Source: Spirochaetales bacterium
GTDB taxonomy: Bacteria; Spirochaetota; Spirochaetia; Sphaerochaetales; Sphaerochaetaceae
Direction: 5' to 3'
Assembly: GCA_012519115.1 (NCBI GenBank)
Contig: JAAYQW010000001.1
Location: 1-64,000 of the forward strand
Length of the DNA: 64,000 nucleotides
The position numbers and the translations under genes were made by a program. Each line of letters opens with the position of its first letter. The stretch's first letter is position 1. Below are positions 24,410 to 31,549 of this stretch, one piece after another. The notes beneath the pieces were generated by a model. It saw only the letters and a program-made list of their open reading frames with translations. It did no database searches and was not told where the DNA came from.

Positions 24410-26200
24410 TTAGCTCCCTCCTTGCAATAGGGTGTTCAGTTCTCGAAGAGCACGGGCGATGTTGGCATCGCTGAAGTTCTGCTTTTTCAGCTTTTCCTTC
24501 CACTCGACATCGGTGGCAATCAGGTGTTTGACGGACTGCACAGACACGGGCGTTCCCGCCTCCATCAGGTCACAGGTTGCCATATCCACCGTTGCGAGAA
24601 GTTCCAGCTTGTTTACGCTCTTGTATTTTAACTTATCGGCTACCCATTTGATGTCAGCCTGTCTGTCCCAACTTTGGACGTAGGCAAGGGCTTTGCTGAT
24701 GTTCTTTCCACGGGCAAAGGTTGTGCCTTGTTTTTTGTTGAAGGTGGCGATGTAGTTCATATTTTTGGCTATCATCTCGCCGCCCTTATAGCGCACTTCG
24801 TCAGCATAGGGACCCGCCGCTTTTTTCTTGAACGCCGCCGTGCTTTCGCCTTGATATCGACGCAGGAGATAGAGGCACTTCTGTACCTTTTTTCTGCCCA
24901 ACGGGTATTTGTCGGAGTAAAGTGCGTCCACAATGCCCGCAATCATCACGGCATCGTCAAATTGCTGGTTGTGCCCTTTGAATTTGGTTTCTTTTGCAAC
25001 AGGGCGAAGCGGTTCTGTCTTCTTCTCTTGGTCAATATCAGCCGTTGCTTTTATGGGTTCGGATTCTACAAGCCGGATCCTGCCTGCCAGCAGTTCGCTC
25101 ATCATTCCCTGCTTGATGTTCTGCAGCTTATTCAGCTTCGCCGTAAGTACGTCAATCTCCGCATCCATATCGGAGAGGATTTCGGCGATGGCGGTCTGCT
25201 CAGCAATAGTTGGTGGAATTTTCACTTCCAGTTTACTATATTCAGAAATCCAGTAACGTTGATGGTCTTTCAAAGGGAAATTTATCGTCTGCATAAGAGC
25301 ATAAATCAAACGAATGTCACAAATTCCTGTTGATGTCAGCAATTTCATTGCAGAGGATTTCACCTTGAACGGATAAGTGATGTACTTGGATTCGGTTGTA
25401 AAATCATCAAATATTATTACAGGTAAATTTGTGTAAATGCCATCGCGCTCATTTGTATAACCTAATACTAATGACTTGCCAGCAGTCAAAACTGGAGTGC
25501 CGCTTTCTTCATACTTGGTGCTTGCAACAATATATTTTTGTGGTTGCTCGTATTGAAGTAATTCACTAAGCGTTGTTTTCACCCACTCGCCCTCAAATCC
25601 CGGCAGCTTCCGCTTGCCCGTGAGCAGTTCCTGCATCACCCCCTGCTTGATGGCGCGCTTCTTAGCGATGAGCTTCTCCGTCGCGGCAAGCAAGGCGTCC
25701 GTATCCGAGAGCGCTTCAGCTATGCGGCGCTGTTCGGGGAGGGGAGGAAGTTGAACTTCAATCTCCGCTAACGATCTCGCCGAGATATGAACAATAGCAT
25801 CACCTTGACCGCGACTTGCTTTTTGCTCAGCAATCGGCTTTGAATTCAAATAGTAACCTAAGAAAAGACTATCCACCGCTTTTCTTGGTGTAAGTATCAC
25901 AATGTCTCCACCTGCATAAGCCTCGCAGTCATCAACAAAAGCAACGCATTTACCGATATCCTCTTTTGTTTCTCCTGAACCAGCAAACAACAATTCTCCT
26001 GTTCGCAAACGCCGAGAGGCATCTGCTACTGTCTCGGAAATATGCGAATGAAAAGTCTTCACATAATCATTGTGATGCGTATAAATCTCACCATACCGAA
26101 CACAAGGTATATTTCCGCTATGTGCTTCGTCCTTGTTTATCCCTCGACCTTTGGAAAAGTCACCTACAGAGCCGAGGATTGTTGTCTCCCAATTCACCAT
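24410..26200 (-). CDS. hsdS: Type I restriction specificity subunit with extra C-terminal domain
   Basis: Two target-recognition-domain conserved regions (LPPLPEQRRIAEALSDTDALL; IPPTIAEQTAIAEILSDMDAEI) followed by ~200 aa not belonging to HsdS. Confidence 0.92.
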   Translation of the reverse strand: MVNWETTILGSVGDFSKGRGINKDEAHSGNIPCVRYGEIYTHHNDYVKTFHSHISETVADASRRLRTGELLFAGSGETKEDIGKCVAFVDDCEAYAGGDIVILTPRKAVDSLFLGYYLNSKPIAEQKASRGQGDAIVHISARSLAEIEVQLPPLPEQRRIAEALSDTDALLAATEKLIAKKRAIKQGVMQELLTGKRKLPGFEGEWVKTTLSELLQYEQPQKYIVASTKYEESGTPVLTAGKSLVLGYTNERDGIYTNLPVIIFDDFTTESKYITYPFKVKSSAMKLLTSTGICDIRLIYALMQTINFPLKDHQRYWISEYSKLEVKIPPTIAEQTAIAEILSDMDAEIDVLTAKLNKLQNIKQGMMSELLAGRIRLVESEPIKATADIDQEKKTEPLRPVAKETKFKGHNQQFDDAVMIAGIVDALYSDKYPLGRKKVQKCLYLLRRYQGESTAAFKKKAAGPYADEVRYKGGEMIAKNMNYIATFNKKQGTTFARGKNISKALAYVQSWDRQADIKWVADKLKYKSVNKLELLATVDMATCDLMEAGTPVSVQSVKHLIATDVEWKEKLKKQNFSDANIARALRELNTLLQGGS

Positions 26201-28629
26201 ACAAACCCCATCCTCTCCAGATGAGATTTTACCTTACCCTCAAGCTGCGCGACCTCGGCTTCGAGTTCGGGCAGGGTCTGCTCATACCGCTCGTTGAGTT
26301 CGGTCACGCGGTCGGAAATGCGGTGGCTAACCGCCGTGTAGAGAGCATAGATGCCGCTGATCATCGCGCGGTACCATTTACGGTTCAAAAGCAGTTCCAC
26401 GCACACGGCTTCGGTCAGCTTGGGGTATTGCGCGCGGGCTTTCCTGTCGAGGGCGTCGCGGAGGCCTTTGACCGTCTTTGTGCCTTCGTCAACCCTTGTG
26501 ACCAAGGTCTGCAAAGTGGTCAGTTCCGCTTTATCGTCGACATCGAGGTCTTTGTCTTTAAGCTTCTTTTTCAGTTCCGGTTTGTCGAGGTTGCCGCTGT
26601 CTTTCAGAACATCTTTTATCACCGAGTCTTCCTCGGCATTTTCAAGCATCTCGTCTAGTTCGGCCTGAGCCGCCGCGATGACGGTGTCCATATCGTCGAT
26701 GGCTTTCTGCTTGGCAGCAAAGAACATCTCTATGATGAGGGATTTCGGCACAAGCTTGCCGTCCCAGCCTGTTTCTTTCTCTTGTTTGATCTCGGTGCCG
26801 TCCTTTTTCTTTTTTGTGGAGGTCTTCATAAACACCTCGATGTCGCGGATAGCCTTGTAGCCGTCTTGCACAAGGAGGTAAACATCGTCGGACATCGTTT
26901 CGTTCCAATAGGATAGAAGCACCTCGTAGACATCATATTTATCCACGAGAGTGATATGCTCGAAATCGATCAGTATTTCTTCAGCAATTTCGGAAATCAA
27001 CATCTTTGGCTTCGTCGTACCGGTAATGTTGCGGAGTTTGCCGGCCACACCGGTTTTCCACTTCTCAAAGGCGGCTTCTACTTTATCGGCATAAGCGGAA
27101 AATTCCGCATCATCGAAGATAGTATCCTGCACTTCGTCTTTTCCGACAGTTAACGTCTCAAAGCCCCCGCGGAAGCCTTTAAACAACTGCCCGCGCAGAT
27201 TCGGAAAAGTCTTCCAGTAGCGCGAAAGGCTCTCCACGTCCGCTGTCGGGATACCGCCGTTCAGATGTCCATCTATACTCTGTAAGTCCTCGGCCTCGCT
27301 GCCGTCTATATAGCGCGGAATGTTGAGGTTGTAAGCGTTCTTCTCCTTTATCTCGGCGTTTGGCACAAAGCGAGAGTATTTTGGCAGTTCGAGCCGCTGA
27401 TTGAATACCGCGGCGATCTTATAAACGTCGCGCTCGCGCAGACGGTTCTTGTTGCCGTCTTTTATAAAGTCGAGGCTGGCGTCAATCATGAAGATGCCGT
27501 CCCGTTCGTCGGCGTTTTCTTTGTCTATGATGATGATGCAGGCAGGAATACCCGTGCCGTAGAAAAGGTTGGCGGGCAAACCTATGATGCCTTTGATATA
27601 CCCTTTATCTATGATGGACTGTCGTATAGTAGCCTCAGCGTTTCCGCGAAAGAGAACGCCATGAGGCAGAATGACCGCTGCCTTTCCGTTGCGTTTCAGG
27701 GACTTGATAATGTGAAGTAGCCAAGCGAAATCACCGTTCTTTTGCGGTGGGCGATCGCCGTACCCATCAAAACGCCCGAACTCTTTCAGCCCGTGTGTCC
27801 AGTTTTTATCGGAAAACGGAGGATTGACCACGGCAAAGTCGAACGTTCGAAGCAGACTGTCATCATCTCTATTTTTAAACTTCGGGTCGGAGAATGTGCT
27901 GTAACCGCCCTCAATTACAGCGGTCGCCCGGTTGTGCAGTACGAGGTTCATCCTAGCAAGACCCGCAGTCGTGCCTTCCTTCTCCTGACCATATATGGAA
28001 ACCTCCACAGGCGCTGCTTCGGCGGCTCGTATAAGTAGGGAACCAGAACCGCAAGCGGGGTCGTAGAGGGTGACATCATTGCCATGAGCATGTTCAATGC
28101 CCACAACTTTTGCAAGAACACGGGACACCTCGGCAGGGGTATAGAACTGACCTTTGCTCCTGCCGCTCTCAGTGGCGAAGTTCCGCATCAGATATTCATA
28201 AGCGTCACCGATGATGTCATCGCCATCAGCGCGATTTTTGGATAAGTCAGGCATCTGATCACGGAATATACCGAGCAGTTCGCTCAGCTTATCTACCATC
28301 TCCTTGCCTTTACCCAGCTTATCCTCATCATTAAAGTGGGCGTTATCGATAACACCTCGGAGATTGTTCGCCTCAGCAAGACGGGCGATGATTTTATCCA
28401 TTTCTTCGCCGATATTCTTGTTGCCTATGAGCGCAAGCATATCATCGAAGCTTCCACCTTCCGGAACATCGATGTCACCATAGGCAACGCCTTTAAATTT
28501 GTCCGACACATACTTAACGAACAATAGGGTAAGAATATAATCCTTATACTGCGAACTATCCATGCCACCACGCAAACTATCACAGCTTGCCCAGAGGCTG
28601 GAATAGAGGTTACTTTTTTTTACCGCCAT
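26194..28629 (-). CDS. hsdM: Type I restriction-modification N6-adenine methyltransferase subunit
   Basis: GQFYTPAEVSRVLAKV, DPACGSGSLL, NPPFSDKNW motifs. Confidence 0.96.
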   Translation of the reverse strand: MAVKKSNLYSSLWASCDSLRGGMDSSQYKDYILTLLFVKYVSDKFKGVAYGDIDVPEGGSFDDMLALIGNKNIGEEMDKIIARLAEANNLRGVIDNAHFNDEDKLGKGKEMVDKLSELLGIFRDQMPDLSKNRADGDDIIGDAYEYLMRNFATESGRSKGQFYTPAEVSRVLAKVVGIEHAHGNDVTLYDPACGSGSLLIRAAEAAPVEVSIYGQEKEGTTAGLARMNLVLHNRATAVIEGGYSTFSDPKFKNRDDDSLLRTFDFAVVNPPFSDKNWTHGLKEFGRFDGYGDRPPQKNGDFAWLLHIIKSLKRNGKAAVILPHGVLFRGNAEATIRQSIIDKGYIKGIIGLPANLFYGTGIPACIIIIDKENADERDGIFMIDASLDFIKDGNKNRLRERDVYKIAAVFNQRLELPKYSRFVPNAEIKEKNAYNLNIPRYIDGSEAEDLQSIDGHLNGGIPTADVESLSRYWKTFPNLRGQLFKGFRGGFETLTVGKDEVQDTIFDDAEFSAYADKVEAAFEKWKTGVAGKLRNITGTTKPKMLISEIAEEILIDFEHITLVDKYDVYEVLLSYWNETMSDDVYLLVQDGYKAIRDIEVFMKTSTKKKKDGTEIKQEKETGWDGKLVPKSLIIEMFFAAKQKAIDDMDTVIAAAQAELDEMLENAEEDSVIKDVLKDSGNLDKPELKKKLKDKDLDVDDKAELTTLQTLVTRVDEGTKTVKGLRDALDRKARAQYPKLTEAVCVELLLNRKWYRAMISGIYALYTAVSHRISDRVTELNERYEQTLPELEAEVAQLEGKVKSHLERMGFVW

Positions 28630-28666
28630 AATGAGTTCCCTTCATGTAGTTCAATTAAATTATTAC

Positions 28667-28933
28667 TCACTGCTGTCGTTCTGTGGTGATATTAAGTATC
28701 TGACCAAGTTCTGGCGTGTATATTCCATAATGCGTCAACAGGTCAGATAGTAAGGCGACAAACACATTCCATTGTAGCGTTCGTTTTCCCTTTTCAATTT
28801 CCAGAAAAGCCTGTCTGCTGATTCCCATCTTTTCGGCAAGTTCAGATTGCTTTAACCGCAGCTTCGTTCTTAGCACCATAAGGTTATCTGACATCTTTTT
28901 AGTTAATTCGTCTTTGTTAATCTCGCCAGCCAC
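28667..28933 (-). CDS. XRE-family HTH transcriptional regulator
   Basis: LRTKLRLKQSELAEKMGISRQAFLEIEKGKRTLQWNVFVAL. Confidence 0.85.
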   Translation of the reverse strand: MAGEINKDELTKKMSDNLMVLRTKLRLKQSELAEKMGISRQAFLEIEKGKRTLQWNVFVALLSDLLTHYGIYTPELGQILNITTERQQ

Positions 28934-29268: not shown

Positions 29269-29280
29269 GTCTTGCATTGC

Positions 29281-29353
<73 letters not shown>

Positions 29354-29371
29354 AAAGTTCGTACTTTTGGC

Positions 29372-29477: not shown

Positions 29478-30941
29478 ATGGAACTGTTGAACAAGCTCAA
29501 GGAAATAAGCTCCTCCATTATCCCGATTCTCATACTCGTGACAATCATGCACTTCTTCATCGCTCCTTTGGAGGAAGGCGTGCTCGTATCTTTTTATATC
29601 AGCGGTGTTCTCATCATTCTGGGACTTTCGTTGCTTCTTCTCGGTGTCGATCTGGGGGTTTTGCCGATCGGCGAGAAGATCGGATCGGCGGTGACCCGAT
29701 CCAGGAGCAATTTCCTCATCGGAGCCACCGGTTTCATCGCGGGAATCGTCATCATCATCGCCGAACCGAATATTGCGATGCTGAGTGAGCAGGTCGCATC
29801 GGTGAACCCCTCGATCAATACCCGGGTTATGGTGGCGATGATCGCCATCGGAGTCGGCTTCTATGTGATGGTGGGAATGTTGCGCCAAGTTTACCGCATC
29901 CCTGTTATCTGGATCTATTTGATCAGTTACATCATCGTGTTCACGTTGGCAATCTTCAGCACCGCCGAGATGATGGCAATCGGTTTTGACAGCGGAGGAT
30001 CGGCTACCGGTCCGCTTTCCGTTCCGTTCATCATGGCCTTGGGAATCGGTGTCGCCCGTGTCCAGAAAGTACAAAAAGAAGCTGATAGCTTCGGCTATGT
30101 TTCTTTGGCGCTCATCGGACCTGCTCTTGCTCTGATCATTCTTGGCATTGTTTCGCCCGGTACCAGCACCAGTGAAGGCGCCCAAGCGACGGTCAGTCAA
30201 GCTGGCGGTTTCATCACTCTCATTCGTCCCAGCGTGCAGATGGCGACCCAAGCGATTACCCCAATGTTCATTCTCAGCTTGCTTTATCAGATTTTTCTCT
30301 TGAAGATGCCCACTCGCCAGGTGCTTCGTGCCGGTGTTGGCTTCATCTATCTCTATATCGGCTTGACCCTCTTTTTTATCGGTTCCAGCGGAGGCTTCAT
30401 CCCAGTTGGCTACCGAATAGGGTACCTCTTGGGGCAAATCAATCCATATCTGCTCCTTTTCTCCGGCCTTGTCATCGGAGCGATCACTGCAATCAGCGAA
30501 TCCTCGGTATGGGTATTGGTAAACCAAGTTCAAGAGATTACTAAAGGGCATCTTCGCAGATCCGTAATGTTGCTTGCGATATCGATCGGAGTAGGCCTTT
30601 CGGTCTTTTTGGCGGTCTTGAGAATTTGGACCGGACTCCCGTTCTGGTCCTTCATTCTGCCCGCTTACATAATCGCCCTTACGCTCGCCTTTTTTGTTCC
30701 CGAGCTGTTTGTCGGACTCTCCTTTGACAGTGGAACGGTTGCCTCCGGTCCGATGGCTTCCACGTTCATCCTCGCATTTGCAATCGGCTCGTCCATGGGT
30801 TTGGAGACGGGAAACCCTGGCGATGCCTTTGGAATTATCGCCTTTGTATCCATTACTCCCGTATTGGTCGTCGAAATCCTTGGCTTGCTGTACAAGAGAA
30901 CACAGGCTAAGCTGAAGAAGGAGGAGAATCAAGCGCCATGA
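29478..30941 (+). CDS. DUF1538 family integral membrane protein
   Basis: Internally duplicated motif FDSGGSATGPLSVPFIMALGIG / FDSGTVASGPMASTFILAFAIG. Confidence 0.85.
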   Translation: MELLNKLKEISSSIIPILILVTIMHFFIAPLEEGVLVSFYISGVLIILGLSLLLLGVDLGVLPIGEKIGSAVTRSRSNFLIGATGFIAGIVIIIAEPNIAMLSEQVASVNPSINTRVMVAMIAIGVGFYVMVGMLRQVYRIPVIWIYLISYIIVFTLAIFSTAEMMAIGFDSGGSATGPLSVPFIMALGIGVARVQKVQKEADSFGYVSLALIGPALALIILGIVSPGTSTSEGAQATVSQAGGFITLIRPSVQMATQAITPMFILSLLYQIFLLKMPTRQVLRAGVGFIYLYIGLTLFFIGSSGGFIPVGYRIGYLLGQINPYLLLFSGLVIGAITAISESSVWVLVNQVQEITKGHLRRSVMLLAISIGVGLSVFLAVLRIWTGLPFWSFILPAYIIALTLAFFVPELFVGLSFDSGTVASGPMASTFILAFAIGSSMGLETGNPGDAFGIIAFVSITPVLVVEILGLLYKRTQAKLKKEENQAP

Positions 30942-31549
30942 AAACCTTGATATTCGCCATCGTCGAAGAGGGAAAAGCCGAACGGCTTATGCAGGTAGCA
31001 AAAGCTGCCGGCAGTCTCGGTGGCACGATTCTCACCGGACAAGGTAGTGGAGCAAGCGGAATTCTAAGCTTGCTCGGGTTGACTGAATTACACCGGGAAA
31101 TCCTCCTTACGATCGTCGATGATTCGATAAAAGATTCGGTGTGGAAAGCTCTGTACACATGCAGAATCCGGAAAGCTCTTCTCACCTCGATTCCTCTGCA
31201 ATCGGGTGATGGTGTTACAAAACCGATTGAAAGCACCCTTTCCATGATTTGTGTCATTTGCCCAAGCGGATTCGGCTGGGACGTTCTCCATGCAGCTCGC
31301 AAGGTCGGGGTGGGCGGAGGAACGATCGTCGAGGGGCGAGGAACGGCAAATCCCGAAGATATCGCTTTCCATGGCTCGTATCTCGTGCCTGAAAAAGAAG
31401 TTCTCTTCATGATCGCGGAGAATGAGATCGTCGATGCGGCGATCCGTTCGATGTCGAAAATTCCCGGACTGGCAAAACCGGGAAACGGAATCGTCTTCAC
31501 GATTCCCCTCGAACAGTTTTTTCAGCGAGTGGTTCGAAAAGAAGTTTGA
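30938..31549 (+). CDS. Double PII-like (nitrogen regulatory protein P-II fold) protein
   Basis: Two PII-like halves in 203 aa (GGTILTGQGSG... and GGGTIVEGRGTA...); ATG overlaps the DUF1538 stop. Confidence 0.75.
   Translation: MKTLIFAIVEEGKAERLMQVAKAAGSLGGTILTGQGSGASGILSLLGLTELHREILLTIVDDSIKDSVWKALYTCRIRKALLTSIPLQSGDGVTKPIESTLSMICVICPSGFGWDVLHAARKVGVGGGTIVEGRGTANPEDIAFHGSYLVPEKEVLFMIAENEIVDAAIRSMSKIPGLAKPGNGIVFTIPLEQFFQRVVRKEV

Follow-up and report, generated by a model that had tools for sequence, protein, structure and literature searches.

The locus lies in the window, by which we mean the complete stretch of 64,000 nucleotides that was analysed (contig JAAYQW010000001.1 of a Spirochaetales bacterium, positions 1 to 64,000). 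Two open reading frames on the plus strand, encoding a membrane protein of 487 aa (hereafter ump) and a PII-like protein of 203 aa, share an ATGA, and each is preceded by a Shine-Dalgarno-like stretch 4-12 nt 5' of its start (Table 1). An earlier note had placed the start of the second gene at 30938, overlapping the stop of the first, and these coordinates are exact. Exactly the same 4-bp overlap is found in 64 of the 152 ump/PII pairs in all loci fetched, and from the overlap, translation of the two genes may be coupled. An Rfam scan for riboswitches, which were sought as a clue to the ligand, was negative around ump in 16 loci and at the window. A tRNA-Ala (ggc) gene on the minus strand (29279-29354) lies a short way 5' of ump, and positions 24410-28933 of the minus strand hold the type I restriction-modification genes hsdM and hsdS together with a small HTH gene. 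The hsdS product has a C-terminal extension of ~170 aa with no Pfam match.

Table 1. Features of the ump/PII locus, in window coordinates
Feature	Position	Strand	Basis
Shine-Dalgarno-like GAGGAGG, 4 nt 5' of the ump start codon	29467..29473	+	sequence reading; putative function
umpAB-like fusion gene for a 487-aa membrane protein with two DUF1538 domains, 14 predicted TM helices, inverted 7+7 repeat	29478..30941	+	PF07556 (twice), sub-threshold NCBIfam, AlphaFold2, positive-inside count
First DUF1538 domain (UmpA-like half)	29526..30152	+	NCBIfam UmpA match
Codon E96 of the AEP motif, at a predicted helix break; invariant acid that may couple the ion	29763..29765	+	alignments A1, A3; putative role
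Codon D171, FDSGG..TGP broken helix, invariant acid	29988..29990	+	alignments A1, A3; putative role
Second DUF1538 domain (UmpB-like half)	30270..30890	+	Pfam and NCBIfam UmpB match
Codon E341, second-half counterpart of E96, invariant acid	30498..30500	+	alignments A1, A3; putative role
Codon D417, second-half counterpart of D171, invariant acid	30726..30728	+	alignments A1, A3; putative role
Shine-Dalgarno-like AAGGAGGAG within the ump 3' end, 5' of the PII start	30918..30926	+	sequence reading; putative function
ATGA: PII start overlapping the ump stop	30938..30941	+	sequence reading
Gene of the 203-aa tandem PII-like protein, a single chain with two PII domains	30938..31549	+	PF00543, AlphaFold2, Foldseek to GlnK
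N-terminal PII half, more diverged than the other	30944..31198	+	Pfam, AlphaFold2, residue alignment; N-half clade support 100/99
C-terminal PII half, better conserved, motifs GGT, RGT, PEKE, PGxG	31238..31507	+	AlphaFold2, alignment, tree

The 487-aa protein matches PF07556 (DUF1538) twice (E 6.9e-112, 372.3 bits against a Pfam gathering cut-off of 22.6). The description of DUF1538 as an uncharacterised family of unknown substrate, given in the earlier note, is wrong at the family level: UmpAB of Halomonas zhaodongensis, which belongs to the DUF1538 family, is a heterodimeric Na+(Li+,K+)/H+ antiporter (PMC5484666), and the family is thus not without a known function. The paper on UmpAB makes no mention of PII. 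With UmpAB the window protein shares the same PF07556 domain and the same two homologous halves of seven predicted helices each, but its halves are fused, and it scores far below the NCBIfam equivalog cut-offs for UmpA and UmpB (NF041627 and NF041628; 135.1 against 490 and 99.7 against 500 bits). Judged by its sequence, it is a fused, distant homologue of UmpA and UmpB. Its substrate would be Na+ or K+, but with scores so far under the cut-offs the transfer of the substrate from Halomonas is uncertain.

An AlphaFold2 model built on the family alignment is of high confidence (pLDDT 93.2, pTM 0.92). No similar solved structure was found by sequence, and Foldseek gave no match with an E value of 0.001 or lower; remote relatives may be missed in such searches. 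When helix limits were drawn by us from the AlphaFold2 helices, the loops of each ump protein contained ~18 K+R inside versus 4 outside, alternating cleanly over the 14 predicted helices. According to this charge rule, both termini are predicted to be cytosolic and the two halves to be inverted. Four acids at predicted helix breaks (E96, D171, E341 and D417) are invariant in both alignments (21 and 53 sequences), and their motifs are also seen in split umpA and umpB proteins from plasmids. This conservation across the sampled family speaks against a transporter for another cation or an organic ion, in which case Na+/K+ antiport would be confined to the Halomonas branch, as does a genome-wide model that lists DUF1538 among pH-adaptation features (PMC13255231). 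The large distance to the UmpA and UmpB models would fit such a different substrate, and so would the missing solved-fold match, which leaves no structural hint at what is carried; on balance we regard this alternative as unlikely, but as one to be taken seriously.

In the 203-aa protein, PF00543 (P-II) is detected in two stretches (E 8.7e-8, 32.9 bits against a gathering cut-off of 25). The AlphaFold2 model (67 sequences; pLDDT 90.5, pTM 0.85) consists of two strand/helix repeats, and its best PDB matches in Foldseek are the GlnK chains 2j9d, 2j9e and 2ns1 (probability 1.00, TM 0.63-0.67 by target length). The protein thus has the ferredoxin-like PII fold, and the two PII-like halves in one chain that had been read from the letters are borne out by profile, model and structural matches alike. 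A PF00543 search of the organism's own genome (~83% complete) yielded nothing at E 0.001 and also missed the copy in the window, so that a canonical PII may still be encoded there.

Both halves were compared with E. coli GlnB and with NifI-like proteins of a relative. Both lack Q39, Y51, K90 (I or V at this position) and R101/R103, and their T-loop has 16-17 instead of 22 residues, i.e. it is ~5 shorter. G35, K58, the T29 position and the glycine-rich loops are conserved, best in the C-half. By these residues, by the length of the T-loop and by having two domains per chain instead of one, the window protein falls outside canonical GlnB/GlnK. In canonical PII proteins, T29 and G35 lie beside the adenine, while K90, R101 and R103 lie beside the phosphates. 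Since the adenine side is kept and the phosphate side is lost, a nucleotide with few phosphates may be the ligand, which is a weak guess. With the loss of the canonical residues that serve 2-oxoglutarate, the phosphates of ATP and uridylylation, classical nitrogen sensing is unlikely, and 2-oxoglutarate and Mg-ATP would be poor first guesses. A role in nitrogen regulation was considered and is disfavoured by the lost residues and by the separate canonical Amt-PII fusion of relatives.

To assess the linkage of the two genes, loci were collected by a DUF1538 profile search, from which the best 80 of 575 were taken; the sample therefore leans to the branch of the window. Flanking sequence was available for 79 of these 80 loci, and in all 79 two PII domains directly follow the double DUF1538 gene, either in one chain (75 loci) or as two PII genes (four loci). 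A script applied to all fetched loci recovered 158 different ump ORFs, 152 of which have a PII gene adjacent on the same strand. Of the other six, two run off the end of the stretch and four were called lone. For two of these four (L118 and L174), PII domains do adjoin, inside ORFs that the script had started too early. A PII gene thus adjoins 154 of the 156 evaluable double-DUF1538 genes, and the neighbourhood survey of PF07556 that the earlier note had proposed finds its linkage conserved. Many of the surveyed genomes are closely related, so the 156 loci do not represent 156 independent events. The pairing is spread over Spirochaetota, Bacillota, Desulfovibrio, Caldisericia, Planctomycetota and two alphaproteobacterial plasmids, in a sample that holds no gammaproteobacterial loci, Halomonas included. 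The linkage of ump and PII is real and old. L156:1405-2991 and L163:664-2238 are true exceptions, double-DUF1538 genes with no PII neighbour, and could show the role of the transporter alone.

No constant third gene was found among the neighbour genes scanned. LuxS matches 10 of the 61 neighbour proteins scanned, from ten Treponema-type loci, and its presence near ump is probably clade-local; apart from it, PII is the only recurrent partner of ump. In L063, L066, L068, L071, L077-L079, L082, L085 and L103, ump is preceded by a short ORF, and these ten ORFs are most likely the LuxS matches. Viral contigs contained one truncated relative only. NCBI annotates the neighbours as 'DUF1538 domain-containing protein' and 'P-II family nitrogen regulator', so their adjacency is already visible in the databases. 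In the open full-text literature, to which the search was confined (subscription papers lay outside its scope), no paper was found that links DUF1538 or UmpAB to PII.

The pairs occur in several architectures. The usual one, also that of the window (type A), is UmpAB followed by two PII domains in one chain; in four loci (type A') the halves are two separate genes in the same order. Several relatives have a tandem PII gene followed by an UmpAB with a C-terminal PII domain (type B). Type C consists of a longer UmpAB followed by a protein of 364-392 aa, in which our PII profile finds three domains, most clearly in L188 (31, 46 and 19 bits), L191 (33, 45 and 22) and L184 (23, 53 and 15). In the two type-C proteins tested with the Pfam PII domain, L045 and L147, none was found, and the three-domain reading thus rests on our profile and on motif repeats seen by eye. 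Type D, with split umpA and umpB followed by one PII, is found on the two alphaproteobacterial plasmids. In two loci (L076:3911-7697 and L200:2883-6669) a single tandem PII lies between a pair of ump genes, and at L183:5529-7501 a second long DUF1538 gene, truncated where the stretch ends, is divergent from an ump/triple-PII pair. A tree of the PII domains, built from few columns and with many weak forks, places all N-halves and the first genes of the split loci in one clade (support 100/99) and the fused type-B domains in a clade of their own (100/100).

Single PII genes of the ump-linked subfamily also occur away from ump in the genus (G000:C1:5-223, which is L031:2-256; L032:6877-7209; L034:5696-6145; L035:5075-5428). 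The first, in the genome of the window, is cut by the contig end. These orphans have no constant neighbour and fall among the C-halves in the tree, from which they appear to derive. A search of the complete ump-bearing genome G017 found no orphan. The idea that they supply a missing third subunit to a type-A trimer was rejected because of this absence and their C-half origin. Also present in the genus is an Amt ammonium transporter whose C-terminus carries a canonical PII, in which the GDGKIF and RTGEE motifs are seen (L201:1330-3240 (-) and L202:1186-2859 (-)). This fusion and the ump-linked PII are distinct systems.

Among known systems, GlnK-AmtB is similar in that the gene of a PII-fold effector adjoins that of a membrane transporter, as is also the case in 154 of the 156 evaluable ump loci, and in that a PII fused to the transporter C-terminus is known for both systems in the genus of the window. 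GlnK itself is a single-domain homotrimer with a long T-loop and with Y51, Q39, K90 and R101/R103, whereas the ump-linked PII has two or three domains per chain, a short T-loop and none of these residues. SbtB-SbtA likewise pairs a dedicated transporter with a divergent PII-like effector, but SbtB is a single-domain trimer on a trimeric transporter. In NifI1/NifI2 the genes of two different PII subunits are neighbours, an arrangement shared by the four split loci, and the best PDB profile match of the PII protein is chain H of 9p1x, which by its sequence we take to be NifI1-like. The partner of NifI1/NifI2 is nitrogenase, not a transporter, and the NifI-like pair of a relative differs in having kept the canonical GDGKIF loop.

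PII proteins gate AmtB, SbtA, NrtABCD and UrtABCDE (PMC10710835). We consider it likely that the pair described here is an UmpAB-type cation/H+ antiporter with a dedicated PII-like effector that docks on it and switches its activity. The two genes would form one operon unit, the chain of two PII domains would dock on the cytosolic face of the fused transporter, and its binding would be set by a small ligand, as for GlnK on AmtB and SbtB on SbtA. By analogy, the docked PII would probably act as an inhibitor. The PII-transporter fusions of relatives make a physical partnership likely and, together with the linkage, argue for direct binding of PII to UmpAB. Loop charges put the C-terminus inside, and the fused type-B domain would thus be in the cytosol. 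The canonical Amt-PII fusion in the same genus may serve as a local precedent for this arrangement.

Conserved adjacency alone does not distinguish regulation from an obligate subunit. The PII chain might be required for structure or assembly of the transporter, with no ligand-operated switch, and the lost ligand residues (Q39, K90, R101, R103 and Y51), the almost absolute linkage and the type-B fusions could all be read in this way. We nevertheless find it improbable: the glycine-rich loops and the T29, G35 and K58 positions are kept, as expected of a pocket in use, two lone ump genes exist, and Halomonas UmpAB was active as an antiporter in E. coli from a clone that had no partner and reportedly no PII gene, although a cognate or host PII could have contributed (PMC5484666). 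Least probable is a role of the transporter as an anchor or sensor in the membrane that would sequester a PII chain whose real targets are enzymes elsewhere, as AmtB sequesters GlnK, since the orphan PIIs that might point to such targets have no constant neighbour and are not obligatory (as in G017), and no third gene recurs near the pair.

Within the preferred reading of a docked, switching effector, the novelty lies in the chaining of the PII domains. PII control is stated to be limited to transporters able to form trimers (PMC10710835). Tentatively, two or three domains in a chain, or a chain of two plus the domain carried by the transporter itself, may form a pseudo-trimeric ring whose sites are unequal and which sits on one transporter molecule, sensing a signal other than ATP or 2-oxoglutarate. 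There would be two domains per transporter in type A and three in types B and C, and the rings of these types may differ; three tandem chains might alternatively provide two rings. If the single-transporter ring is true, PII control would no longer depend on a trimeric partner. These chains put the trimer-only rule to a direct test. The analysis also brings to view an unexplored PII subfamily without the classical nitrogen-sensing residues. For DUF1538, a widespread antiporter-related family with a confident model that has no solved-fold match, the pairing with chained PII domains provides a functional lead.
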